From positions 1 through 33,507 of the forward strand of contig JAIFMG010000115.1 in assembly GCA_020048645.1 (NCBI GenBank): DNA of 33,507 nt. Reading direction: 5' to 3'. The stretch comes from Bacteroidota bacterium (GTDB lineage: Bacteria; Bacteroidota; Bacteroidia; Bacteroidales; UBA6013). Under the pieces are notes generated by a model. The model made no database searches, was not told the origin of the DNA, and saw only the letters and a program-made list of their open reading frames with translations. A program made the position numbers and the translations under genes. Positions 2,344 through 27,286 of the stretch are shown one piece after another (position 1 is the stretch's first letter; each line of letters begins with the position of its first letter).

Positions 2344-4218
2344 TTATGCGTTGCCTTCTTCGAGCTTGGTCTTGAGGGCGGCGAGCTCGCTGATGTCTCC
2401 CAAGGTGGTCTTCTCGAGGTTGATGGCGGGCTTCTTCTCGGTGCGGGGCTTGCCGGCAGGGGCGGCCTGGGCGGTGTCGCGGCGCTTGGTGGTGCGCTCC
2501 TCGGCCTTCTTGGCGTCATCGAACACGCGGGTGTGCGAGAGGATGATGCGCTTCTGCTGCTTGGAGAACTCGATGACCTTGAACATGAGCTTCTCCTCGA
2601 CCTGCGCGTTGGCGCCGTCTTCCTTGACCAGGTGGCGGGGCGTCGCGAAACCTTCGACGCCGTAGGGCAGCGCGATGGACGCGCCTTTCTCGAAGATGCT
2701 CAGGATGGTACCCTCGTGGACGGAGTTGACCGTGAAGAGGGTCTCGAACACGTCCCATGGGTTTTCTTCGAGCTGCTTGTGGCCGAGGCTGAGGCGGCGG
2801 TTCTGCACGTCGATCTCGAGCACGACGACCTCGATGTCCTGTCCGATCTTGGTGAACTCGTTGGGGTGCTTGATCTTCTTGGTCCAGGAGAGGTCGGAGA
2901 TGTGGATCAGGCCATCGACTCCCTCCTCGATCTCGACGAACACGCCGAAGTTGGTGAAGTTGCGGACTTTGGCGTGGTGGCGCGAGCCGACGGGGTACTT
3001 CTCGGCGACCATGAGCCATGGATCGGGCTTGAGCTGCTTGATGCCCAGGGACATCTTGCGGTCCTCGCGGTCGAGGGTGAGGATGCGGGCTTCCACCTCG
3101 TCACCCACCTTGAGGAACTCCTGGGCGCTGCGCAGGTGCTGCGACCACGACATCTCGGAGACGTGGATGAGGCCTTCGACGCCGGGGGCGATCTCGACGA
3201 ACGCGCCGTAGTCGGCCATGACCACGACGCGGCCCTTGACCTGGTCGCCGACCTTCATCTCGGTGTTGAGCGAATCCCATGGATGGGGGGTGAGCTGCTT
3301 GAGGCCCAGGGCGATGCGCTTCTTGTCGTCGTCGAAGTCGAGGATGACGACATTGAGCTTCTGGTCGAGCTGGACGATCTCCTCGGGGTGCGAGACGCGG
3401 CCCCATGAGAGGTCGGTGATGTGGATCAGGCCGTCCACGCCGCCCAGGTCGATGAATACGCCGTAGGAGGTGATGTTCTTGACGGTGCCTTCGAGGACCT
3501 GGCCTTTTTCGAGCTTGGCGATGATCTCGCGCTTCTGCTGCTCGAGCTCCTCCTCGATGAGGGCCTTGTGCGAGACGACGACGTTCTTGAACTCGTGGTT
3601 GATCTTGACGACCTTGAACTCCATGGTCTTGCCGACGTAGATGTCGTAGTCGCGGATGGGCTTGACGTCGATCTGCGAGCCGGGCAGGAAGGCCTCGATG
3701 CCGAAGACGTCCACGATCATGCCGCCTTTGGTGCGGCACTTGATGAAGCCTTTGATGATCTCGTCCTTGTCCATGGCGTCGTTGACGCGGTCCCATGAGC
3801 GGAGGGCGCGGGCTTTCTTGTGCGAAAGCTGGAGCTGTCCGTTCTTGTCTTCCTCGTTCTCGACATAGACCTCGACGATGTCGCCCTTCTTGAGCTCGGG
3901 GTTGTAGCGGAACTCGCTGATGCTGACGTTGCCTTCGGATTTGAACCCGATGTTGATGCTGACCTCGCGCGAGCCGACGCTGGTCACGGTCCCGTTGAGG
4001 ACCTGGTGGGCGGCGACGGTGGCCAGGGTCTTGTCGTACATGGCCTCGACGGCCTTGCGCTTCTCGGAATTCTGCTCCTCTTCGGCCTCGAAGGCGTCCC
4101 AGTCGAAGTCCTCGTTCTTGACGAAGTTGTAGGTCTTCTTTTGGGGAACCTGCGCAACTTCTTGTTGGGAATCCACGGGGGTTTCCACTTCTTGGTTGTT
4201 GTCCAAATCTTCAGCCAT
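2344..4218 (-). CDS. rpsA: 30S ribosomal protein S1
   Basis: A 624-residue protein with six consecutive S1/OB-fold RNA-binding repeats, about residues 50-120, 134-207, 228-300, 313-387, 400-473 and 487-560. The third to fifth repeats carry the canonical pattern G-V/F-V/F-D/E-I/L followed by GLIH[IV]S/T. The first, second and sixth repeats are more divergent, as is usual for bS1. The N-terminus (NEDFDWDAFEAEEE) is the acidic, aromatic extension typical of Bacteroidota S1. The C-terminus is Lys/Ala-rich. S1 recruits mRNA to the 30S subunit, which matters where Shine-Dalgarno sites are rare, as here. The gene is monocistronic, with its own promoter, a short leader with a hairpin, and a terminator. 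Confidence 0.97.
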   Translation of the reverse strand: MAEDLDNNQEVETPVDSQQEVAQVPQKKTYNFVKNEDFDWDAFEAEEEQNSEKRKAVEAMYDKTLATVAAHQVLNGTVTSVGSREVSINIGFKSEGNVSISEFRYNPELKKGDIVEVYVENEEDKNGQLQLSHKKARALRSWDRVNDAMDKDEIIKGFIKCRTKGGMIVDVFGIEAFLPGSQIDVKPIRDYDIYVGKTMEFKVVKINHEFKNVVVSHKALIEEELEQQKREIIAKLEKGQVLEGTVKNITSYGVFIDLGGVDGLIHITDLSWGRVSHPEEIVQLDQKLNVVILDFDDDKKRIALGLKQLTPHPWDSLNTEMKVGDQVKGRVVVMADYGAFVEIAPGVEGLIHVSEMSWSQHLRSAQEFLKVGDEVEARILTLDREDRKMSLGIKQLKPDPWLMVAEKYPVGSRHHAKVRNFTNFGVFVEIEEGVDGLIHISDLSWTKKIKHPNEFTKIGQDIEVVVLEIDVQNRRLSLGHKQLEENPWDVFETLFTVNSVHEGTILSIFEKGASIALPYGVEGFATPRHLVKEDGANAQVEEKLMFKVIEFSKQQKRIILSHTRVFDDAKKAEERTTKRRDTAQAAPAGKPRTEKKPAINLEKTTLGDISELAALKTKLEEGNA

Positions 4219-4267
4219 TGAGAAAAAGTTTTGAAATTTAATGGGTTAGACATTATGTTGTTACGGA

Positions 4268-4280
4268 AGGGCTTCGCCCT
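4268..4280 (-). promoter_or_regulatory. Small hairpin in the rpsA leader
   Basis: AGGGC-TTC-GCCCT, a perfect 5-bp stem with a 3-nt loop, lies about 50 nt upstream of the rpsA ATG and inside the transcript predicted from the promoter at 4296-4326. Bacterial r-protein leaders often carry autoregulatory structures. A regulatory role for this hairpin is inference only. Confidence 0.3.
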
Positions 4281-4295
4281 CGCGTGTCAGGGCCG

Positions 4296-4326
4296 CGAAA
4301 ATAGCTTTTTTCCTTTGAAACACAAA
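4296..4326 (-). promoter_or_regulatory. Bacteroidota-type promoter for rpsA
   Basis: On the minus strand, TTTG (4323-4326) is followed after exactly 19 nt by TATTTTCG (4296-4303), matching the -33 TTTG / -7 TAnnTTTG pattern of the Bacteroidota housekeeping sigma except for C at the third-last base of the usual TTTG. Predicted transcription start is near 4290, giving a leader of about 70 nt. Confidence 0.6.
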
Positions 4327-4408
4327 AGCTTTCGGTGATTTTTCGCCCTTGGCGGCCCAGGAGGGTCCGCGGCCGAAGCGGCCCGCCAGCGCCAGTGCGT
4401 CGAAAAAA

Positions 4409-4439
4409 TTGGACTGGTGGCCCAGATCCCTTACATTCG
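4409..4439 (+). promoter_or_regulatory. Candidate promoter for the receiver-kinase gene
   Basis: TTG (4409-4411), a 20-nt spacer, then TACATTCG (4432-4439), close to the -33/-7 pattern. Predicted transcription start is near 4446. That places the in-frame ATG at 4417 upstream of the transcript and favours the ATG at 4495 as the true start. Confidence 0.45.
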
Positions 4440-4494
4440 CGGGAACAACCCGCCAGCCTTTTGCCAAGGTTGCGCCCAAATGCCAGGCCACAGC

Positions 4495-5754
4495 ATGGAA
4501 ATCGTGCAAAAAATTCTGATCGTTGACGACAAGCCGGCCAACCTCTTCGCCCTGGAGAAAGTCCTGGCCGACGTCAAGGCCGTGGTGGTCAAGGCCGCCA
4601 GCGGCAACGAAGCCCTGATAGCCACGCTCAACCACGACTTCTCGGTGGCCATCCTGGACGTGCAGATGCCCGAGATGGACGGCTACGAGCTGGCCGAGAT
4701 CCTGCGCGAGGAGGAAAAGACCCGGCTCATGCCCATCATCTTCCTCTCGGCGGTCTTCTCGGACGACTTCCACGTGTTCAAGGGCTACCGGTCGGGCGCC
4801 GTCGATTTCATCACCAAGCCCTTCAACCCCGAGGTGCTGCTCAACAAGGTGCGCGTCTTCCTGGACCTCAACCTCCAGAAGATGCAACTGGAGCAGCAGA
4901 AGCGCAAGCTGGAGCGCCTGGTGCTGGAGCTGAACCAGGCCAACGAGCGGCTCTCGCTCGAGATCGACGAGCGCGTGCGGGCCGAGCGCGAGCTGACCCA
5001 GAGCCAGGAGCGCCTGCGCGAGCTCAACGCCACCAAGGACAAGTTCTTCTCCATCGTGGCGCACGACCTGAAGAACCCCTTCAACTCCCTGATCGGCTTC
5101 TCGAACCTGCTGCTGCAAGGCAAGGGCAGCCTCGAGGACGAGAAGGTGGAGCACTTCCTCAACCTGATCCACAACGCGGCCAAGCGGGGCTACAACCTGC
5201 TGGAGAACCTGCTCGAGTGGTCGCGCTCCCAGACCGGCCGCATCAACCTCAGCCCGGCGCCCCTGCGGCTGGGCACCCTGGCCCGCGAGAGCTTCGACCT
5301 GCTCAGCAGCCAGGCCCAGAAGAAGAACATCGAGCTGGTCTCGGAAATCGCCCCCGAGGCCCGCGTCTTCGCCGACCTGAACATGATGAACACCGTGGTG
5401 CGCAACCTGGTCTCCAACGCCATCAAGTTCACCCCCGAGGGAGGCCGCGTCTGGCTGGGCGCCACCGAGCAGGGCGACCACCTGCGCCTGGAGGTGCGCG
5501 ACAACGGCGTGGGCATCAAGCCCGACAAGCTCGACAAGCTCTTCCGCATCGACCAGAGCGTCTCCACCAAGGGCACCTCCAACGAGCTCGGCACCGGGCT
5601 GGGCCTGGTCATCTGCCAGGAGTTCATGCACAAAAACAAAGGCCGCGTCTGGGCCGAGAGCGCCGCCGGCCAAGGCAGCTCCTTCTTCATCACCCTGCCC
5701 AGGGACCAGGACGCCTGGAACCGCCTGCCCGACCCCTCGGCGCAGGCGGTCTGA
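4495..5754 (+). CDS. Response-regulator receiver fused to a histidine kinase
   Basis: A 419-residue cytoplasmic signalling protein. Residues 5-125 are a receiver domain (acidic pair D11-D12, phosphoacceptor D55 in DVQMPEMDG, K108 in ITKPF). Residues 124-180 form a charged coiled coil. A HisKA segment follows with phosphoacceptor H190 (SIVAHDLKNPFNS), then a HATPase_c domain with N-box N308, G1 DNGVG (337-341) and G2 GTGLG (366-370). No membrane segment is present. The receiver precedes the kinase, an arrangement often found in proteins that take input from another kinase. The 4495 start fits both the receiver boundary (MEIVQKILIVDD) and the predicted promoter; upstream in-frame ATGs at 4417 and 4480 add residues with no domain match. 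Partners are unknown. Confidence 0.93.
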   Translation: MEIVQKILIVDDKPANLFALEKVLADVKAVVVKAASGNEALIATLNHDFSVAILDVQMPEMDGYELAEILREEEKTRLMPIIFLSAVFSDDFHVFKGYRSGAVDFITKPFNPEVLLNKVRVFLDLNLQKMQLEQQKRKLERLVLELNQANERLSLEIDERVRAERELTQSQERLRELNATKDKFFSIVAHDLKNPFNSLIGFSNLLLQGKGSLEDEKVEHFLNLIHNAAKRGYNLLENLLEWSRSQTGRINLSPAPLRLGTLARESFDLLSSQAQKKNIELVSEIAPEARVFADLNMMNTVVRNLVSNAIKFTPEGGRVWLGATEQGDHLRLEVRDNGVGIKPDKLDKLFRIDQSVSTKGTSNELGTGLGLVICQEFMHKNKGRVWAESAAGQGSSFFITLPRDQDAWNRLPDPSAQAV

Positions 5755-15967: not shown

Positions 15968-17332
15968 TTAGCTCATTTCTTTTTTCATCATGTCCAAGCC
16001 TTTGCGCAGGATGCTCTGGACCTCGATCTTGGAGGCGCAGACGTACTCGCACAGGGCCATGTCTTCCTCGGCCACCTCGTAGATGCCGAGTTTTTCCATC
16101 AGCTCGACGTCCTCGATCAGGACGGCCTTGAGCAGTTGCACGGGCATCAGGTCCATGGGCAGGACCTTCTCGTACTGGCCCGAGAAGACGAAGGCGCGGT
16201 GGCCGCCGTGGAAGTTGGTGTCGAGTCGGTACTTCTTGCCATTGCCCGAGAGCCACGAGAAGAAGGTGCGCGAGAAGCTGAACTTGCCGAAGCCCGGAAG
16301 CGCCCAGCCGAAGAACTCGTAGTGGTTGCCTTCGGGCAGGACGGTTATCTGGTGGTGGTAGTAGCCGATTCCGTTGGCTTCCATCGCCTTGGCGCCCGTC
16401 AGGGCGTTGCCGCTGATGATGCGGGGCTTGTAATCCTTGGCCTCGGCCAGGTTGCCCTGGATGAAGTTCTTGATGGGAGTGCCGTAGAGGCCCTTGACGT
16501 ACCGGGGCTCCTTGACCTCCGAGCCGGTCACGGCCACCACGCGGGTGGCGTCGTAGGCGCCTTTCATGAACAGCTTGCCGATGGTGGCCGTCGCCAGGGC
16601 GTCGAGGTACCAGACCACTTCACCCTTGTTGATGGGGTCGATGTGGTGGATCTGGATGCCCGCCAGGCCCGAGGGATGCGGGCCGGAGAACCGGTTGACC
16701 TGGACGTTCTCGGCCTGCGTGAAGGCGGCGGACTTGGTCTTCTCGGCGTGGATGCCCACGTGTACCTTGCCCGTGGTCAGCTTGCGCAGGGCGGCCAGGC
16801 CCACCTTGAAGGCCTCTTCCTGGCCCTGGATGAGGAAGTCGTAGTCGGGGGCCAGCGGCGAGCTGTCGAAGGCCGTCACGAAGATGGACTTGGGCGACTG
16901 GTTGGGATTGGCGATGACGGCGTAGGGGCGCTGCCGGATGGAGGGCCAGATGCCAGAGAGCATGATGTTCTGCCTGACCTGCTCGGGGCTGAGGCTCGTG
17001 GGGTCGCCCTTGGTGAAGCTTTCGTACTCGACCTGGGCGTCCGGCTCGATGACGATCTCCAGCAGCTTGCGCTTCTCGCCGCGGTTGATGGCCGAGACGG
17101 TGCCGCTGACGGGCGAGGTGAACATCACCTCGGGCGAGGCCTTGTCGAAGAAGAGCGGACTTCCGGCCTTCACCCTCTCGCCCTGCTTGGCTTTGAGCTT
17201 GGGTGTGATGCCGTGGAAGTCGGTGGGATGGATCACGTAAGCGTTGGGCTTGGGCGCCTCGACCAGCTTGGCTTGAGGCCCGCCTTGCAACGGAATGTCC
17301 AGTCCTTGGGTAATCTTGGTTATTTTAGACAT
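15968..17332 (-). CDS. nqrA: Na+-translocating NADH:quinone reductase subunit A
   Basis: A 454-residue cytoplasmic, peripheral subunit of Na+-NQR that contributes near the quinone site. It starts with DIPLQGGPQAKLVEAP, continues with VKAGSPLFFDKASPEVMFTSPVSGTVSAINRGEKRKLLEIVIEPD (a biotinyl/lipoyl-like fold, of which GTVSAINRGEKR is the core), and holds the conserved GPHPSGLAGIQIHHIDPI. It is the first gene of the operon and has the best promoter in the window 36 nt upstream. An in-frame start other than 17332 is not needed. Confidence 0.97.
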   Translation of the reverse strand: MSKITKITQGLDIPLQGGPQAKLVEAPKPNAYVIHPTDFHGITPKLKAKQGERVKAGSPLFFDKASPEVMFTSPVSGTVSAINRGEKRKLLEIVIEPDAQVEYESFTKGDPTSLSPEQVRQNIMLSGIWPSIRQRPYAVIANPNQSPKSIFVTAFDSSPLAPDYDFLIQGQEEAFKVGLAALRKLTTGKVHVGIHAEKTKSAAFTQAENVQVNRFSGPHPSGLAGIQIHHIDPINKGEVVWYLDALATATIGKLFMKGAYDATRVVAVTGSEVKEPRYVKGLYGTPIKNFIQGNLAEAKDYKPRIISGNALTGAKAMEANGIGYYHHQITVLPEGNHYEFFGWALPGFGKFSFSRTFFSWLSGNGKKYRLDTNFHGGHRAFVFSGQYEKVLPMDLMPVQLLKAVLIEDVELMEKLGIYEVAEEDMALCEYVCASKIEVQSILRKGLDMMKKEMS

Positions 17333-17517: not shown

Positions 17518-19530
17518 TCATCCCGGGCTTTCCACGAAGCGGAAGCCCAGGATAAGGTCGCCCTTTTCGAGAAGGTGGACCACTTCCATCCCGCTGACCA
17601 CCTGGCCGAAGACGGTGTACCTCCCGTCGAGCTGCGGCGTGGGGCTGTGGGTGATGAACCACTGGGCTCCCTCGGTGTCCTTGCCGGCCGAGGCCATGCC
17701 CAGGGCTCCCGTGTCGAAGCGCAGGGTCGAGACCTCCGTGCGGATGGCGTATTCGAGGGCACCCCAGCCGTCGCCCCGCGAGCATCCTCCCTGGACCACG
17801 AAGTTCGGGACGACCCGATGGAAGCTCTTGCCCTCGAAATAGCCGGAGCCGAGCAACTCCAGGAAGCTGGCCACCGTCTGGGGGGCCTGGTTGACGTACA
17901 GCTCGGCCACGAAGTCGCCCTTGGTGGTCTCGATGAGAACGCGGGTGTTCTGGCGGATGGGCCCGATGGTCTCCCAGTTGAGGGAAGCCATGGGCAATTC
18001 CTGCGGCAGGGTCCGGGCGGGGCGGTTCTCGAGCAGGGCCAGGGTCTGGTTCAGCTCCGCCCAGGCCTCGAAGTCGCGGGGCATCTGGCAGCGCTCCATG
18101 GCCTGCGCCAGGTAGCCCCTGTCGGTCCGCCGGGCGTGGGCCAGCAGCCGGGGGTCGCGCAGGGCGATGGCCACCAGCGAGGTGGCCGCGGGGTCGTCCA
18201 GGGCCACGATGCGGCGGAAGTAGTCGTCGAACAGCGAGTCGAGCCGCGGGCCGCGGGTGCCGCGGGCCAGCGAGTCGAAGTCGGGATGCAGGCGCATGGC
18301 CGTCATGGCCTCGACGGCGGCGGTGCGCACGGGCGCGTCCTTGGCGGCGGCGAGCTCCGCCCAGACCAGCGGGTGTAGCAGGGGCGAGCCCGCGAGGGCC
18401 AGCAGGAAGTCGGCCTTCTGGTGGGGGTTGTCGGTGCCTCGGTAGGCCGCCAGGGCGTAGTCCTGGAAGCGCTTCTCGGCCGGGCGGGCGGCGATGGCGG
18501 CGCGCAGCATCAGCGCCCGGGTCACCCAGTGCGGCGTCTGCACCGCGAACCCGAAGTAGGTGTCGGCGTCCGGGCTGCGGCTGTTCGCCACGAAGAACTC
18601 GGCCGCGCGCTGGGCCACGTGCGGGTTGGGGTCGAGCAGCAGCTCGAAGAGCGCCCGCTTGGCCCCCTCGTAGTCGTAGCGGGCCAGCGCCGCGACGGCG
18701 CTGACCCGGGCCCGGTAGTCCTTCGACCTGTCGCGGGCCAGGGCGTTCAGGCTGTCGAAGCCCCGGATGCTGGGCTGGGCCCCGAGCGCGCTGGCCAGGT
18801 TCATCTGCGCCACCGGGTCCTCCTCGTGGGCCAGCAGCTCGGCCAGCAGCAGCTCGAGCCCCTCCTCCCAGAAGGCGGACCCGCGGCGGAGGTAGAAGCT
18901 CGCCGCCTGGCGCACCCGGTAAGGGCGATGCGCCTCCATCAGCTCCAGCACCTTGGCCGTGGCCTCGGGCGAGCAGAGGCCCCGGAGGCCGCACCGCGCC
19001 AGGCCCCAGGCCTGGCCCAGGGTGCCTTGCAGGTTCGCCGCGTCGTACTCCAGGCTGGCCAGCGCGGCCAGCCCGGCGGCTCCGCCCGTCTTGCCCAGGG
19101 CCTCCATCAACTGCGCCTGCACCGAGGTCTCGTTCTCCTGCGCCAGAAGGGCCAGAAGCGCCTCGGTCGCGCTCGTGTCGGCGCACTGGCCCAGCGCGAA
19201 GGCGGCGGCCTCGCGCACGGCCATGCTCGAGTCCTGGCGAGCCAGCAGCAGCAGCGGGCCGACAGCCTTGGGCGACTGCGCGTTGGCAAGGCCCAGGCAA
19301 AAGGCCGCGCGCAGCCGGCTGTCCTCCGACTGAAGGTGGCCCAGCAGAGAGTCCAGCGCCCGCTCGTTCTGCCACTCGGCCGCCCGGACCATGCCCGGAT
19401 CGCGGTAAACGTTGTCGCCTACCTGCTCGCTCGCGCCGGGCTGGCTCACGCTCTGGCGGCAGGAGGGCAAGAGCCAATGCAATGAAAACAATACCAAAAA
19501 AGGGAATAAATGTCGTCTTGTTCCTGCCAT
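17518..19530 (-). CDS. Lipoprotein with HEAT-type repeats and a cyclophilin domain
   Basis: A 670-residue exported protein. From the ATG at 19530 the N-terminus is a lipoprotein signal with Cys in LLPSCRQS. Residues from about 40 to 500 are alternating helical pairs rich in Leu, Ala and Arg (for example DSLLGHLQSEDSRLRAAFCLGLA and AVREAAAFALGQ) typical of HEAT/PBS-lyase-like repeats. The last 145 residues are a cyclophilin-type peptidyl-prolyl isomerase with FHRVVPNFVVQGG, GALGMASAGKDTEGAQWFI and LDGRYTVFGQVVSGMEVV, so the active site is largely intact. Likely a periplasmic folding factor whose repeat superhelix binds clients or membrane partners; this is inference. A longer form from 19665 adds residues with no signal-peptide character. 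Confidence 0.87.
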   Translation of the reverse strand: MAGTRRHLFPFLVLFSLHWLLPSCRQSVSQPGASEQVGDNVYRDPGMVRAAEWQNERALDSLLGHLQSEDSRLRAAFCLGLANAQSPKAVGPLLLLARQDSSMAVREAAAFALGQCADTSATEALLALLAQENETSVQAQLMEALGKTGGAAGLAALASLEYDAANLQGTLGQAWGLARCGLRGLCSPEATAKVLELMEAHRPYRVRQAASFYLRRGSAFWEEGLELLLAELLAHEEDPVAQMNLASALGAQPSIRGFDSLNALARDRSKDYRARVSAVAALARYDYEGAKRALFELLLDPNPHVAQRAAEFFVANSRSPDADTYFGFAVQTPHWVTRALMLRAAIAARPAEKRFQDYALAAYRGTDNPHQKADFLLALAGSPLLHPLVWAELAAAKDAPVRTAAVEAMTAMRLHPDFDSLARGTRGPRLDSLFDDYFRRIVALDDPAATSLVAIALRDPRLLAHARRTDRGYLAQAMERCQMPRDFEAWAELNQTLALLENRPARTLPQELPMASLNWETIGPIRQNTRVLIETTKGDFVAELYVNQAPQTVASFLELLGSGYFEGKSFHRVVPNFVVQGGCSRGDGWGALEYAIRTEVSTLRFDTGALGMASAGKDTEGAQWFITHSPTPQLDGRYTVFGQVVSGMEVVHLLEKGDLILGFRFVESPG

Positions 19531-19793
19531 ATCTTTTTTCTTCGGAAAATTCCGTTTTGATGCTACATTCCAACAAACCATGACCCAAACCGCTTTCTCG
19601 CGTTTTGATTGTTCATAAGTTAATCCGCCTTTTCCTTCCATTCGTCCCGGATGGTCCATCGCCACTTTTTCTGACCGCTAAATTAAGGCCTTTGGCGCCA
19701 TGCGGCGTTAAATATTGTTAAAAAATGTAACCCCTACCCAACCCCGAGCGTCTGGCTTGCGTGACCTCCAACAGAAACCCCCTCCCACAGACC

Positions 19794-20396: not shown

Positions 20397-20987
20397 ATGA
20401 GCATCGACCCCGAGCTGATCGACGGCTGCCTCAAAAACAGCCGAAAGCACCAGGAGCGCCTCTTCAAGGTCTGCTTCAGCCCGCTCATGTCGGTCTGCCT
20501 GCGCTACCACCACAACCACGAGGACGCCCGCGCCGTGGCCAACCTCAGCTTCCTCAAGATCCTCGACAAGCTCCAGACCTACAGGCCCGAGGTGCCCTTC
20601 GAGGCATGGGTCAAGCGCATCGCCCTCAACTCCATCATCGACGACTACCGCAAGAACAAAAAGATCAACGAAAGCACCTCGCTCGTCGAGTTCCAGGACT
20701 TCAACGACCACCACGACCTCACCGACTTCAACCTGGCCGACCAGGACTTCGACGCGCAGGAGCTGCTCCGCATGATCGCACAACTGCCGCCCGCCACCAA
20801 GGCCGTGTTCAACCTCTTCGCCATCGACGGACTGCCCCACAAGGAAATCGCCGATCAGCTCGGCATCTCCGAAGGAACCTCCAAATGGCAACTCGCCCAG
20901 GCCCGCAAATTGCTCCAAGATAAAATCAAGTCCCTCCGAAAACAACTCAAAACCGTCCTGCTATGGCTGATCAACAACACCCGATAG
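20397..20987 (+). CDS. ECF-type RNA polymerase sigma factor
   Basis: A 196-residue sigma-70 family protein with region 2 at about 20-90 (YHHNHEDARAVANLSFLKILDKL and PFEAWVKRIALNSIIDDYRKNKK) and region 4 at about 120-180 (LPPATKAVFNLFAIDGLPHKEIADQLGISEGTSKWQLAQARKLLQ), where the helix-turn-helix lies. There is no region 1 or 3, as in extracytoplasmic-function sigmas. The C-terminal 15 residues are hydrophobic/basic. Its last 25 nt overlap the start of the next gene, which encodes an anti-sigma-like membrane protein, so the two are very likely a regulatory pair. Confidence 0.93.
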   Translation: MSIDPELIDGCLKNSRKHQERLFKVCFSPLMSVCLRYHHNHEDARAVANLSFLKILDKLQTYRPEVPFEAWVKRIALNSIIDDYRKNKKINESTSLVEFQDFNDHHDLTDFNLADQDFDAQELLRMIAQLPPATKAVFNLFAIDGLPHKEIADQLGISEGTSKWQLAQARKLLQDKIKSLRKQLKTVLLWLINNTR

Positions 20988-22492
20988 ACGAACTTTTCCG
21001 CCAGAAGCTCGACGCCCTAGACGTCCCCTACCAAGACGGCTTCTGGCAAGACGCCGCCACCTTGCTCGACCAGCGCGACAAGGCCGCCCGGCCGCTCTGG
21101 AAACGCCTCTGGCACTGGCTCGCCGGGCTCGGACTGCTCGCGCTGGCCGCGCTCGGCATCCTGCTGGCCGCCGATCCCGTGGCGCCCGCCACTGCTCCCA
21201 GGCTGCCGCAGGCAAGCGCCGCCACACAAAGCTCCTCCGCCCCTGCCCAACCAGCGGCAGAAGCCAGCATCAGCGCGCCACACCAAGCCAACACCCTGTC
21301 TTCCGCGCCGACCGACCATGCGGGACACCCGCGCCAGGGCGAGGCCCCTGCGCGAAATGGCGCTTCCCCCAAAGCCCATTCACTTTCATTTTCGGGAAAT
21401 GCCAACGCCCAGCCCGCCCCGAATGCTGACGTTTCCACCGGACAGCGCGCCGACGAAAATGCCGACCATCAAGCCCTTTCGGCAAATGCCTCCGCGGCGA
21501 CCTCGCACAACATCCCAAACTCTTCTGGCGGACCAACCCCCCCCAACCTCGTCCGAATTTCATCTTCGGGAAATGCCAACGCGACACAAGCAGCGAATGC
21601 GCAAAACCCACTCGGACTCGACACGCATGAAAATTTCAATCTCACTTATTTTTCGGTAAATGCAGAAGCGGCGCAGCTTGAAAACATACCAAACGTTGAC
21701 AGCGAGGAAACAGGCGAAAACGCCAATTCCCCTTCACTTTCGGGAAATGCCCGCCCGGCGCCCCAAGCTGACCGCTTGGGCATCACCCTCGACGGGCTGC
21801 TCCCCATCGGCCTCCTGACCGAGGCAACCCGACCGGAACTTCAAGCCAGAAGCCTAGAAAAGAGCCACTTCCAATCGCCCTACTGGGAGGTGGGCCTGCT
21901 GGCGCAGTCGTCCCTTTCGCGCGGCTTCCTCAACGGCAAAGCCCAGCGCCAGGCCGCCTCGCTCAACTCCAGCTTCGGGCTCGAGTTCGCCTACGCCTTC
22001 CGCTACCGCTGGCAACTGCACCTGGGCGCGGCCGTCCACTCGCGCGGCAGCCTCAACAGCGACACGACCCTGCGCGGCGGCTACTTCGACTTCGACTTCT
22101 ACCCCGAGACCCTGGTCATCGTCCAGAAGAAGCTCCACTACCTCGAACTGCCCGTCGGCGTTCGCTGGCGCGTCGGCGGAAGGCACCAGATCGGCCTGGG
22201 GGCCAGCTACCACCTCCTGCTCGACTCGCGGGGCGAGATGCACCACAGCGCCACCGACCGCGAGGGCCAGCACGACTTGGGCATACAAGCGGCCAACGGC
22301 TACCGCCAAGGATTCGCCGACGACGACTGGAGCGCCCAGCTCAGCTACGAGCTCCGGCTCAACCCGCAGCTCAGCCTGGCCGCGCGCGGCAGCATCGGCC
22401 TGCGCGACATCACCCTCGATTCCCATTTCCACAACCAGAGCCCCGACCGCAACATCAACCTGCGCCTGGGGCTGAAATTCCACCTCCGATGA
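20963..22492 (+). CDS. Anti-sigma-like membrane protein with repeat linker and beta-barrel domain
   Basis: A 509-residue protein of unusual build. Residues 1-45 are a short polar segment (IDELFRQKLDALDVPYQDGFWQDAATLLDQ) like that of Bacteroidota anti-sigma proteins; 50-70 is one hydrophobic helix; 72-140 is Ala/Pro/Ser-rich; 144-290 is a 29-residue repeat array; and 305-509 is a series of amphipathic strands with aromatic ends typical of an outer-membrane beta-barrel (YWEVGLLAQSSLSRG to NINLRLGLKFHLR). The C-terminal residue is Arg after Leu, not Phe. It overlaps the sigma gene upstream and the lipoprotein gene downstream (ATGA). Best reading: a membrane sigma regulator that reaches the outer membrane. 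The barrel could alternatively be a soluble beta domain. Confidence 0.75.
   Translation: MADQQHPIDELFRQKLDALDVPYQDGFWQDAATLLDQRDKAARPLWKRLWHWLAGLGLLALAALGILLAADPVAPATAPRLPQASAATQSSSAPAQPAAEASISAPHQANTLSSAPTDHAGHPRQGEAPARNGASPKAHSLSFSGNANAQPAPNADVSTGQRADENADHQALSANASAATSHNIPNSSGGPTPPNLVRISSSGNANATQAANAQNPLGLDTHENFNLTYFSVNAEAAQLENIPNVDSEETGENANSPSLSGNARPAPQADRLGITLDGLLPIGLLTEATRPELQARSLEKSHFQSPYWEVGLLAQSSLSRGFLNGKAQRQAASLNSSFGLEFAYAFRYRWQLHLGAAVHSRGSLNSDTTLRGGYFDFDFYPETLVIVQKKLHYLELPVGVRWRVGGRHQIGLGASYHLLLDSRGEMHHSATDREGQHDLGIQAANGYRQGFADDDWSAQLSYELRLNPQLSLAARGSIGLRDITLDSHFHNQSPDRNINLRLGLKFHLR
21391..21770 (+). repeat. Exact 87-bp (29-residue) repeat array inside the anti-sigma-like gene
   Basis: The core S-x-N-A (DNA TCGG[GCT]AAATGC, mostly TTTCGGGAAATGCC) recurs at protein residues 144, 173, 202, 231 and 260, so every 29 residues exactly. 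Two further Asn positions keep the same period (154/183/212/241 and 166/195/224/253). The rest of each unit is diverged. The core uses AAT for Asn, whereas AAC is preferred elsewhere in the window. Confidence 0.9.
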
Positions 22493-23850
22493 AGACCAAG
22501 GCCCTCGCACTGGCCGCCGCCCTCGCGCTGGCCGCCTGCGAATCCAACGAATATCCGGAGCTGCAGCTCGACACCGAGGCCGCCTTCTACGTCCGCGGAA
22601 TGCTCAACGGGCAAGCCTTCGCCCTCGAGGCCGGGCGCCAGGGCTACTTCATCCGCAACGGCTTCGAGGCCCTGCCCGACACCTCGCTGCTCCGCCTCTG
22701 GACCAAGTTCGAGCACCAGGATTGCCCCAACTGCGCCAGCAACCTCACCTTCGACTTCCTGCAAGCCTCCCTCCCGCTGGCCGACCCGATGGACGCGATG
22801 GTCAGCCAGGTACCCGCCTTCGCCCTGCCCGGGCAGGCCCTGCTCGCCGTCGAAACCCGGTTCGACTGCCGCAGCGAGCTGGCACCCGGCGAAATCGTCC
22901 GATGGGACTTCGGCGACGGGCACCAGGCCGCCGGCGCCAGCGTCGTCCACGGCTACCAGCAGCCCGGAAGCTACACCGTGCGCATGGCCATCAGCGGAAA
23001 CGGACAAGAGCGGCAAGTCACCACCCAAGTCCAGGCCGACGCCACCGACCGACGCGGGCAGGCCGCCCTCGCGACGGGCCTCAGCCGGCTCGTGCTCCAG
23101 ACCCAAGCCACCGACGAGGAGCCCCTTGCCGTGGTCTGGACCTTCGACGATGGGCTGAGCCTGAGCGGAGCCACCGCCAGCCGCCTGGTCGTCCCCGGAC
23201 ACGCGCTCAAGGTCAGCCAGGTGGCCGTCTTCGCCAGCGGCAGCTCGCTACTGGAGGCCCCCCTGATCACCGGCCCGACCGACTGCGCCATCGACCTGCG
23301 CGCCACCCATGTCGGGCCGCTCGAGGTCCGGTTCGCCGCTCAGGGCGCCCCCGCCGGCTCGTCCTTCCGCTGGACCTTCGGCGACGGGCACACCTCTACC
23401 CTGGCCAACCCCAGCCACCCCTACTCCACTGCCGGAGTTTACAAGGTCTGCCTCCGCGTCCAGACGCCCCAAGGCTGCGTCTGGGAGCAGTGCGCCAACA
23501 TCCGCACACTGCTCAACCACCAGCAGCCCGTGGCCAACTTCAGCTACTGGGAAGAGCCCCTCGACTCCACCCGCTTCGACTTCCAGACCCGGGCCATCAT
23601 GGCCCAGCAGCGCCCCGGGCAAGTCGCCATCTCGCACACCGACCCCCAAGGCAACCGCTACGGAACCGACCTGGCCAGCCAACCCCTCGAAAGCCAGATC
23701 GTCATCGAGCGCGTCGAGCAAGCAGGCACCGACTCGCTCGGCCGACAGGTCCTAAAAGTCTGGCTCCGTGTCGATTGCCTGCTCCACAGCGCCACGCAGC
23801 CCATCCGCCTCGAGCAGGTCGAAGCCTGCATCCCCCTGGTCGTGCCCTGA
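22489..23850 (+). CDS. PKD-domain lipoprotein
   Basis: A 453-residue exported lipoprotein. The signal is MKTKALALAAALALAAC with lipobox LAAC. Two clear PKD-type immunoglobulin-like domains are present: one with VRWDFGDGHQA...HGYQQPGSYTVRM at about 145-190 and one with FRWTFGDGHTSTLANPSHPYSTAGVYKVCLRV at about 290-330. Between them is a degenerate third with VVWTFDDGLSLSGA. The C-terminal 110 residues are unassigned. PKD domains usually mediate extracellular protein or polysaccharide contacts. Its ATG overlaps the stop of the upstream barrel protein (ATGA), so it is the last gene of the sigma-factor unit and may be a ligand-contacting partner or regulated cargo. No enzymatic motif is seen. Confidence 0.82.
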   Translation: MKTKALALAAALALAACESNEYPELQLDTEAAFYVRGMLNGQAFALEAGRQGYFIRNGFEALPDTSLLRLWTKFEHQDCPNCASNLTFDFLQASLPLADPMDAMVSQVPAFALPGQALLAVETRFDCRSELAPGEIVRWDFGDGHQAAGASVVHGYQQPGSYTVRMAISGNGQERQVTTQVQADATDRRGQAALATGLSRLVLQTQATDEEPLAVVWTFDDGLSLSGATASRLVVPGHALKVSQVAVFASGSSLLEAPLITGPTDCAIDLRATHVGPLEVRFAAQGAPAGSSFRWTFGDGHTSTLANPSHPYSTAGVYKVCLRVQTPQGCVWEQCANIRTLLNHQQPVANFSYWEEPLDSTRFDFQTRAIMAQQRPGQVAISHTDPQGNRYGTDLASQPLESQIVIERVEQAGTDSLGRQVLKVWLRVDCLLHSATQPIRLEQVEACIPLVVP

Positions 23851-24432: not shown

Positions 24433-26826
24433 TCATTCGTAGCGGAGCGAGCGCGCCGGGTCGGTCAGGCTGGCCTTGACGGACTGGTAGGCCGTGGTCA
24501 GGACCGTGGCCGCAAGGCTGATGAGGCTGGCCCAGAGCAGCTCCGCCCAGCCCACCTCGACGCGGTAGGCGAAGTTCTCGAGCCACTGGCGCAGGCTCCA
24601 CCAGGCGGCCAGCCAGCCCAGCAGGTTGGCCCCGACAAAGGGCCACAGCAGCTCGCGCCAGAGCAGGCCCACAACCTCGAAGGCCGAGGCGCCGAGCACC
24701 TTGCGGATGCCTATCTCCTTGATTCGCTGCGAGGTAACGAACGAAGACAAGCCCACGAGCCCCAGGCAGGTTATCAGGATGGCCAGCAGGGCCAAGTAGC
24801 CGAAAGTCTGGCTCAGCTTGCTCTCGACACGGTAAAAACGCGAGAGCGTCTGGTCGAGCAGGTGGTAGCGGAAGGTGCCATCGCCAGAGAGCTCCCCGGC
24901 GACGCGCTCGACCTCGGCCAGCGCCTGCTCCGTATCCGGGCCCAGCCGCAGGTTGAGCACCGGCAGGGGCAGGCTGTCGAACAGGAGCACCAGCGGGTCG
25001 ATGGGCTGGTGCAGCGAAACATAGTTGAAGTCGGCCACCACGCCCACCACGCGGCCCAGGATGCGCCCGACGGCGGCCGCGTCGTCGCTCGAGGACATGG
25101 GCGTGCCCAGCGCGGCCTCGGGCGTCAGGCCCAGGGCGCGGACGGCCGCCTCGTTGAGGATGAACTGCTCCCCCTGCCGGAGGCTGTCGAAGTCGGCGCC
25201 CGCGACCAGCCGAAGGCCGAGCGTGGCCAGGTAGTGGGCGTCGGTGGAGATGAAGTTCAGCGCCAAGATGGCCGTGCTGTCGGCCAGCTCCACCACGAAG
25301 GGCATCCGCGACGTGCGCTCGGCGGGCAGGGCCGACGAGCAGAAGCTCGACTCCAGAACTTGCGGAAGCTCGCCCAGGCGCGCCTGGAACTCGTCGGCGC
25401 GCGCCCACAGGAGGCTGTCGCGCAGGGCCGCCACCATGATGTTGCCCTTTTCGAAGCCCAGGTCCTTGTTCTGGAAGAAGTCGAACTGCTTTTGCACCAC
25501 CAGCGTGCCCGCCAGCATCGCCACCGATATGCCCAACTGCAAGCCAACCAGCACCTTGCGCAGCCGTCCGCCGTGGCGCTTGCCCACCCGGGCCTTGCCC
25601 TTGAGCACCTCCACGGCCTTGAAGGACGAAAGGTAGAAGGCCGGATAAAGCCCCGAGGCCAGGCCCACCAGCAGGCTCAGGCCGAAGCTGATGGCCAGCA
25701 TGGGCAGGTTTTCGTTCCAGACGAAGCGCAAGTCCTTGCCTGAGAGCGTGTTGAAGCTCGGCAGCAGCCACTCGACCAAGGCCACGGCCAGCACCCAGCC
25801 GGCCAGGGCCAGCAGCAGCGACTCGCTCAGGAAACGCAGCCGGATCTGCCCGAGGCTCGCCCCCGCGACCTTGTGGATGCCCACCTCCTTGGCCCTGTCG
25901 GAGGCGCGCGCCGTGGCGATGTTGGTGTAGTTCACCACCGCGATGGTCAGGATGATGGCCGCGATGGCGATGAAGATCTGCACGTAGCGCCGCTCACCCG
26001 AGGGCAGGTCCCACTCGGCCTGCGAATCGAGGTAGATCGAGGCCAGCGGCTCGAGCACGGGCTGGTAGGTGGCCCCGAGCGACTGGCCCAGCTCGGCCAT
26101 GTGGCGGTCGTAAAAGCCCGAAAACCGCGCCCCGAAGGCCTCCGGGTCGAAGCCCTCGCGCACGCGCAAGTAGGTGAAGGCGTTGAACGACCAGATGCTC
26201 GCCTGCTCGGCCCAGTCGGCCACCGTGCCCAGCGAAAGCAGCATCCCGAAGCGCAGGTGCGAGTTGCCCAGGGGATCCGCGAGCACGCCCACCACCACGA
26301 AAGGCTGGTCGCCCTCGCGGACGAGCACCTTGCCCACGGCCGGCTCCTGGCCGAAGTAGCGCTCGGCCACCTGCCGGCTCAGCACGACGGTGTTGGGCTC
26401 GGTGAGGGCCTTTTCGGCTGTCCCTTCGGCAAATTCGAAACCGAAAAAGTCAAAAAAGCTCGAATCGGCATAAAACACGTCATCGTGCATGAACTGTTTC
26501 TGGCCGTATCGGAAGCCCTGCTCGCCCGCGTCGATCACGCGCAAGAAAGCCTCGACCTGCGGGTCTTCCCGCGCCAGCAGCGGCCCAAGGGGCAGACCGC
26601 TCGTGGCCACCGTGTCGCTCTGGTTGGCGATGGTGTAGCCCGAGCTGACGCGGTAGGTCCGCTCGTGGTTGGGCTGGTGCCGGTCGTAGCTCAGCTCGTC
26701 CTGCACGTAAAGCCCGATCAGGCTGGTGGCGGCCAGGCCCAGCACAAATCCCAACACGTTCATGCTGGCGTAAAACTTGTCTCGGACCAGGCCTCGGTAC
26801 GCGCTTTTCAGGTAACTGCCAAACAT
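24433..26826 (-). CDS. MacB/FtsX-type ABC transporter permease
   Basis: A 797-residue membrane protein with the layout of the large Bacteroidota permeases. An N-terminal helix (VLGFVLGLAATSLIGLYV at about 22-40) precedes a MacB-like periplasmic core. Central transmembrane helices sit around 295-430, including the FtsX-like AIAAIILTIAVVNYTNIATARASDRAKEVGIHKVAGASLGQIRLRFL pattern. A second periplasmic core follows, then a C-terminal FtsX domain with SQRIKEIGIRKVLGASAFEVVGLLW and the end TDPARSLRYE. Both copies of the REVGI-R/KVxGAS motif are present. The ATG at 26826 is chosen because the upstream extension has no membrane or conserved sequence. No ATPase is adjacent, so the partner is elsewhere. 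Substrate unknown; lipoprotein, peptide or antibiotic export are family precedents. Confidence 0.92.
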   Translation of the reverse strand: MFGSYLKSAYRGLVRDKFYASMNVLGFVLGLAATSLIGLYVQDELSYDRHQPNHERTYRVSSGYTIANQSDTVATSGLPLGPLLAREDPQVEAFLRVIDAGEQGFRYGQKQFMHDDVFYADSSFFDFFGFEFAEGTAEKALTEPNTVVLSRQVAERYFGQEPAVGKVLVREGDQPFVVVGVLADPLGNSHLRFGMLLSLGTVADWAEQASIWSFNAFTYLRVREGFDPEAFGARFSGFYDRHMAELGQSLGATYQPVLEPLASIYLDSQAEWDLPSGERRYVQIFIAIAAIILTIAVVNYTNIATARASDRAKEVGIHKVAGASLGQIRLRFLSESLLLALAGWVLAVALVEWLLPSFNTLSGKDLRFVWNENLPMLAISFGLSLLVGLASGLYPAFYLSSFKAVEVLKGKARVGKRHGGRLRKVLVGLQLGISVAMLAGTLVVQKQFDFFQNKDLGFEKGNIMVAALRDSLLWARADEFQARLGELPQVLESSFCSSALPAERTSRMPFVVELADSTAILALNFISTDAHYLATLGLRLVAGADFDSLRQGEQFILNEAAVRALGLTPEAALGTPMSSSDDAAAVGRILGRVVGVVADFNYVSLHQPIDPLVLLFDSLPLPVLNLRLGPDTEQALAEVERVAGELSGDGTFRYHLLDQTLSRFYRVESKLSQTFGYLALLAILITCLGLVGLSSFVTSQRIKEIGIRKVLGASAFEVVGLLWRELLWPFVGANLLGWLAAWWSLRQWLENFAYRVEVGWAELLWASLISLAATVLTTAYQSVKASLTDPARSLRYE

Positions 26827-27286
26827 GATGAATTTTGTTAGAAGCATTCGGGACTTCGCAGGGCAATGTAAGCAATTCTTCGACATTCGGCTGCTTACTC
26901 CCATTATTGGAAAAACCATCCATCAGGTTGAATCTTTCAAACGACCACATTGCGTCAAAACAAGTTAAAAAAATACTAGGCAGGATAGAAAAACCTTTCA
27001 GCCCAAAACTGACACCAAGTTGTGCTCAAACGCATTGGCCAATTCCTGGAGTTACGCTGCCGGGCTCGAATCCCGTAGCAATTGGCACAACAGCCAAATT
27101 TTGTCGGTCAATGGTGATGTGTCTGTCTCAACATCGAAAGCAACTTGGTGTAAAGGTTTCATTGTTGACTTTTCCTCTACCCTAAATCAGAAATTTTTCG
27201 CCGTTAGCATTCGCCAGTTTCATCCATTTGGTGTAAATTGGCTGAAGGAACCAATTGTCCAAAATTTCAAACCAAACTAAGAAAAC
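26827..27286. other. 460-bp gap between divergent genes with an inverted-repeat element
   Basis: Holds the paired 11-mers ACACCAAGTTG (27012-27022) and CAACTTGGTGT (27141-27151), about 140 bp apart end to end, and a short inverted repeat AATTGG...CCAATT at 27237-27256 just before the next gene. It is more AT-rich than neighbouring genes. No gene and no clear promoter are visible. Confidence 0.6.
27012..27151. repeat. Inverted-repeat-bounded segment (possible MITE remnant)
   Basis: Perfect 11-bp terminal inverted repeats ACACCAAGTTG / CAACTTGGTGT enclose about 118 bp without a reading frame. No clear target duplication is seen. The third copy of the end sequence at 24325-24335 suggests it is dispersed. 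Confidence 0.35.

Follow-up and report, generated by a model that had tools for sequence, protein, structure and literature searches.

A probable Dma-type anti-sigma factor with an outer-membrane barrel, its likely lipoprotein partner and a predicted promoter motif associated with type IX secretion cargo in Bacteroidota

Results

Organization of the locus and architecture of the fusion protein

The window (the whole stretch of DNA that was analyzed, 33,507 nt) contains three consecutive genes for an ECF sigma factor, a fusion protein with the build of a Dma-type anti-sigma factor and a lipoprotein with PKD domains, preceded by a predicted promoter and a gene for a small secreted protein (Table 1). 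The ATG of the fusion gene lies within the last codons of the sigma factor gene (fusion start at 20963, sigma end at 20987), an overlap of 25 nt; that the two genes overlap had been noticed in a preliminary description of this DNA.

Table 1 Features of the operon and of the encoded fusion protein (positions in the window)
Feature	Position	Strand	Details
Predicted ECF promoter of the operon	19736..19762	+	ACCCAACCC (-35), 15 nt, CGT (-10, 19760-19762); near-consensus motif copy
Small secreted protein, 104 aa	19794..20108	+	signal peptide; ends LPKGVYFVLTVVGGQSCLEQLLIA; between predicted promoter and sigma gene
ECF sigma factor, 196 aa	20397..20987	+	Pfam Sigma70_r2 and r4_2 above cut-off; TIGR02937
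Dma-type anti-sigma/outer-membrane barrel fusion, 509 aa	20963..22492	+	ATG start
N-terminal cytoplasmic segment, residues 1-51	20963..21115	+	Trp28 invariant; putative sigma binding
Inner-membrane helix, residues 52-70	21116..21172	+	N-in by the positive-inside rule
Disordered periplasmic tether, residues 71-305	21173..21877	+	pLDDT <50 for 75-298
29-aa (87-nt) repeat array, ~4.6 units, residues 139-271	21377..21775	+	inside tether; periodicity; 174-nt spacings
C-terminal 10-strand outer-membrane barrel, residues 307-507	21881..22483	+
PKD lipoprotein, third operon gene	22489..23850	+	lipobox LAAC (Cys17); PKD domains; conserved partner of the sigma-Dma pair

Hydropathy analysis identified one hydrophobic helix in the fusion protein (residues 52-70), which agrees with the single membrane helix that had been proposed to follow a short N-terminal segment. 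Five lysine or arginine residues are found in the 15 residues before this helix and one in the 15 residues after it, so the N-terminus should be cytoplasmic. The full-length AlphaFold model consists of helices at residues 7-18 and 25-70, disorder at 75-298 and a barrel at 307-507 (pLDDT ~95). When the C-terminal part was modeled on the basis of a 46-sequence alignment, ten strands were obtained with a pLDDT of 92.2, and the PDB folds most similar to this barrel model according to Foldseek were OmpA, Ail, OmpW, NspA and OprG. The same part matches Pfam OMP_b-brl_2 (PF13568) with 29.0 bits against a cut-off of 27, or 31.6 bits for the domain alone. The suggestion that about 200 C-terminal residues form an outer-membrane barrel was thereby borne out, as residues 305-509 were modeled as such a barrel at high confidence and no soluble fold was obtained. 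Searches with residues 1-51 against Pfam and the PDB gave nothing convincing, and no curated anti-sigma domain was matched. Further PF13568 genes in the genome of the window were considered as additional Dma copies and rejected, a sigma factor gene being present in none of their loci.

The Asn/Ala/Pro repeat linker of the preliminary description is real and more exact than had been claimed, with a unit of 29 aa, a periodicity above that of all 500 shuffles and a signal that is visible in the DNA as well (identity of 0.48 at lag 87). Its interpretation as a dispersed genomic element was rejected, as near-exact copies are confined to the fusion gene. The tethers of five relatives (L012, L013, L016, L020, and L075) are internally repetitive too, but their periods (21-35 aa) are unrelated; as linker repeats thus differ in length and sequence between some relatives, the tether seems to have been built by repetition more than once.

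Relatives of the fusion protein and their gene neighborhood

A single-protein scan of the genome contigs for close homology returned no relative of the fusion protein, and closer alignment returned Bacteroidia MAG records only. Of 296 genomes from the class, 155 contained matches to a family profile built from three sequences (L002, L003, and the window), bare barrels and N-termini being among these matches. Seventy relatives were selected by a barrel or N-terminal match, with frames ≥ 400 aa favored and sigma factor genes left out of the selection. All of them share the build of the window protein, and in all 70 the fused gene lies directly behind an ECF sigma factor gene, which is independent support for the pairing because the relatives had been chosen without regard to sigma. 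The reading frame is not a chance one, since homologs in which the parts are arranged identically are found throughout the class. Together with the window, the fusion gene overlaps the sigma factor gene in 49 of 71 cases, lysine and arginine are more numerous before the helix than after it in 68 of the 71 sequences, and Trp28 is the one residue of the N-terminal segment that is invariant (71/71). The barrel is conserved as a family with conserved motifs, and the length of the tether ranges from ~126 to 368 aa.

These data qualify the earlier description of the N-terminus as anti-sigma-like, against which a mismatch of residues 1-45 with all known anti-sigma N-termini would have counted: a Pfam or PDB match was indeed not obtained, but the segment constitutes a conserved family of its own, with its tryptophan in 71/71 sequences and its position always behind a sigma factor gene, as described for Dma proteins (PMC13088901).

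A lipoprotein family as third member of the operon

In 40 of the 71 operons, the gene that follows the fusion belongs to one homologous lipoprotein family, characterized by an invariant lipobox cysteine and by distinctive N- and C-terminal parts. PKD domains are present in 32 of 38 aligned lipoproteins, the family including short forms that lack PKD. The association was also approached from the opposite side, by searching 148 genomes with a profile of the lipoprotein C-terminal part alone. This reverse search yielded 33 matches at E ≤ 1.1e−12, one of which is located at a contig edge, while 31 of the other 32 lie behind a sigma-Dma pair; among the strong matches from outside the profile-building set, the proportion was 9/10. 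The weak matches of the same profile were mostly stand-alone short lipoproteins. The lipoprotein presumably contacts the barrel as its partner. In one relative (L132), the sigma-Dma pair is followed by two short lipoprotein genes of this family in tandem (3955-4578 and 4584-5222), and in two others (L018 and L071) a secreted protein with SprB repeats takes the place of the lipoprotein after the anti-sigma factor.

A predicted promoter motif upstream of the sigma factor genes

An enriched-word search 5' of the sigma factor genes recovered CCCAACCT followed, 15 nt on, by CGT, which is how an ECF promoter is built (AAC in the -35 and CGT in the -10 element). With up to two mismatches, the motif was found in 24 of 64 upstream regions, whereas the controls gave 0.6 (dinucleotide shuffles), 1 (reverse complement) and 2.3 (stretches taken at random from these loci), and its spacing was 15 in 19 of 22 cases; these upstream counts are not blind, the motif having been derived from those very sequences, whereas the genome searches are. 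The strict motif is absent from many sigma-Dma operons. Sigma-70-type promoters were also looked for and none was found, and terminator-like sites did not exceed their frequency in shuffles.

In the 4.8-Mb genome of the window, the local pattern (T or C as last letter of the -35 element) has 3 sites, compared with 5 for the backward control. This count is at background, but the placement is not, as a rough estimate gives a probability of 2e−4 for finding any of three sites ≤ 700 nt 5' of the sigma factor gene on the right strand. The site is located ~30 nt 5' of the small ORF and 635 nt 5' of the sigma factor gene, and its position upstream of both predicts a four-gene transcript. The small ORF itself was considered as a type IX secretion system (T9SS) cargo on account of a C-terminus that resembles a sorting tail by eye only, but this was not supported: it had no NCBIfam or Pfam match (TIGR04183, PF18962) and aligned weakly with sorting domains in hhalign (21%). 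One relative (L209) has the same order as the window, the gene that separates promoter and sigma factor gene there encoding a T9SS cargo protein of 663 aa.

Motif sites genome-wide and T9SS cargo

The strict motif has 11 sites in 296 genomes (backward control: 2), and 7/7 genomes with it carry a sigma-Dma operon that has a lipoprotein or a SprB protein behind it. A further strict-motif site precedes PorP/SprF and then GldJ (L166). A looser version of the motif (MCCCAACCYTT-N13-CGTR) was searched in 51 genomes with sigma-Dma operons and gave 53 sites, against 6 for the backward control. Fourteen of these precede the sigma factor genes of sigma-Dma operons, and 22 precede 21 genes, in 11 genomes, for proteins with a T9SS sorting domain, which scores above the curated cut-off in 19 of the 21 and a little below it in the remaining two (L161 and L163). 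Three sites precede large secreted proteins that were seen in part (one with 17 SprB repeats), and the other 14 are followed by no sigma, T9SS-cargo or large secreted-protein gene. The genome of the window encodes more than 50 type A sorting domains, an estimated 1% or so of its genes; given such a frequency, a cargo gene behind 22 of the 39 non-operon sites is far above background. The link between motif and cargo is strongest in few genomes, as two genomes of one genus (G101 and G138) supply 11 of the 22 cargo sites.

The second motif site in the genome of the window lies before a gene (L167) whose 816-aa product combines PKD with a type A sorting domain. A third one (G000:C199, L168) precedes a 1783-aa protein with a kinase-like start and may be due to chance.

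From these sites we infer that the window sigma factor reads the CCCAACCT-N15-CGT motif and drives both its own operon and T9SS surface proteins. Another ECF sigma factor of the same genomes could also be the reader of the motif.

Discussion

In FecR-type signaling, as in the system of the window, an outer-membrane barrel, an inner-membrane anti-sigma factor and an ECF sigma factor take part in one signal path, but there the barrel is one protein and the anti-sigma another, with contact between them in the periplasm, whereas here they form one chain. Cell-surface signaling of the FecR type has been reviewed elsewhere (PMC9249621). The fusion itself is already known and matches the Dma class of dual membrane-spanning anti-sigma factors, named in 2024 in Bacteroides (PMC13088901), and the earlier remark that little has been described of how the fusion works is accordingly right in part only. 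In Bacteroides thetaiotaomicron, Dma1-3 occur with Das sigma factors, and deletion of dma2 raises the expression of das2 and of the operon genes, with a phenotype that requires das2; the build in four parts, the association with an ECF sigma factor and an operon of three genes have all been described for these proteins (PMC13088901). We liken the window protein to them by architecture and gene position: the four parts come in the same order next to an ECF sigma factor gene, including the single transmembrane helix, the long disordered tether and the C-terminal beta-barrel, while the N-terminal sigma-binding domain of Dma has as its counterpart a conserved segment with an invariant tryptophan that lacks a curated domain match. 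The partner of Dma is a sigma factor of the ECF21 family and that of the window protein is the adjacent ECF sigma factor (assigned by Pfam). The two systems differ in the third gene, here a mostly PKD-containing lipoprotein family without a match to DUF4943 (the annotation of BT_1557), and in the predicted regulon, which consists here of T9SS cargo and not of vesicle or polysaccharide genes, Bacteroides Dma1 and Dma2 being tied to vesicles and polysaccharide loci and not to the T9SS (PMC13088901).

Control of the T9SS by an ECF sigma factor is known in Porphyromonas gingivalis (PMC7712824), where the sigma factor likewise acts on T9SS genes and a surface protein stands ahead of the signal, although through a two-component system instead of an envelope-spanning anti-sigma factor, and on T9SS components instead of mainly cargo. 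It has also been suggested for Flavobacterium psychrophilum (PMC9723704), in which the SM6 promoters have a CGT -10 box, as here, and targets that include T9SS components and one sigma/anti-sigma pair; the anti-sigma is not described there as a barrel fusion and the listed targets are not cargo, the comparison covering the -10 box and the targets of SM6. In the open-access papers that were searched, the 2024 PNAS paper on Dma not being among them, we found no report of a PKD-lipoprotein partner, of a CCCAACCT-N15-CGT promoter or of a link between Dma-like anti-sigmas and T9SS cargo.

Overall, the interpretation given to the fusion protein in the preliminary description is supported, and the protein would carry the state of the outer membrane to the sigma factor. 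Our favored reading, with a probability of about 0.64, is a sigma/Dma-type anti-sigma/PKD-lipoprotein operon in which sensing at the outer membrane frees the sigma factor for the transcription of the operon and of T9SS surface genes. The computational analyses show how the protein is laid out, that it ends in a barrel fold, that the operon is conserved and that there is a promoter motif associated with T9SS cargo; sigma binding, the signal and the release step of the anti-sigma are put forward here as probable parts of the scheme, and analogy with dma2/das2 (PMC13088901) speaks for sequestration of the sigma factor. The N-terminal segment would hold the ECF sigma factor at the inner membrane, and the chain would cross this membrane once, span the periplasm as a flexible tether and end as an outer-membrane barrel, which, with the lipoprotein as its likely partner, would gate the sigma factor from the outer membrane. 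This outer end may sense that conditions at the surface have changed, or that type IX secretion has; the tether would pass this on, probably via regulated proteolysis, and the freed sigma factor would then transcribe its own operon and the genes of T9SS-exported surface proteins from CCCAACC(T/C)-N15-CGT promoters.

Three other readings were weighed against this one. It is very improbable that an ordinary outer-membrane protein stands by chance behind the sigma factor gene and is no anti-sigma at all: residues 1-51 do lack a curated anti-sigma domain, but the sigma gene directly upstream in 70/70 relatives, the overlap in 49/71, the conserved N-in N-terminus and the published genetics of Dma2/Das2 (PMC13088901) argue against it. 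We also regard as improbable, though less extremely so, a barrel that serves as a constitutive outer-membrane anchor while stretch, cleavage of the tether or a periplasmic ligand brings about activation, either within the periplasm or at the level of the inner membrane; a long disordered tether with self-repeats, found here and in several relatives, would suit such a role, while a barrel family with conserved motifs and a lipoprotein partner would not.

Unlikely, finally, is a barrel that reports outer-membrane protein assembly and has no ligand, so that failed insertion by BAM would leave it unfolded and lead to proteolysis of the anti-sigma and release of the sigma factor as an envelope-stress response. 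The sensor is presumably a BAM client, with a last strand of the 'LRLGLxYxL' type in many members, and the wide variation in linker length (~126-368 aa) implies that the tether is no strict ruler, both of which fit this possibility; the predicted targets, however, include T9SS cargo and surface adhesins but neither chaperones nor proteases, and surface sensing accounts better for an operon with a PKD lipoprotein of its own.

A tentative extension, which is less likely than not, would make the sigma-Dma-lipoprotein operons of Bacteroidota feedback controllers of type IX secretion: barrel and PKD lipoprotein would monitor either the cargo at the surface or the flux of export, and the tethered sigma factor would adjust the expression of cargo genes through CCCAACCT-N15-CGT promoters, a single step that spans the whole envelope. 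Dma-type anti-sigmas have so far been studied in one gut species. Should a readable promoter and a dedicated lipoprotein be common to the operons, their regulons would become predictable from the DNA of many uncultured Bacteroidota, and a concrete, testable candidate would be available for how the output of type IX secretion is set.

Flanking genes

Beyond the operon, three genes on the reverse strand of the window appear, by eye, to code for an NqrA-like protein (15968-17332), a HEAT-repeat/peptidyl-prolyl isomerase-like protein (17518-19665) and an FtsX-type permease (24433-26919).
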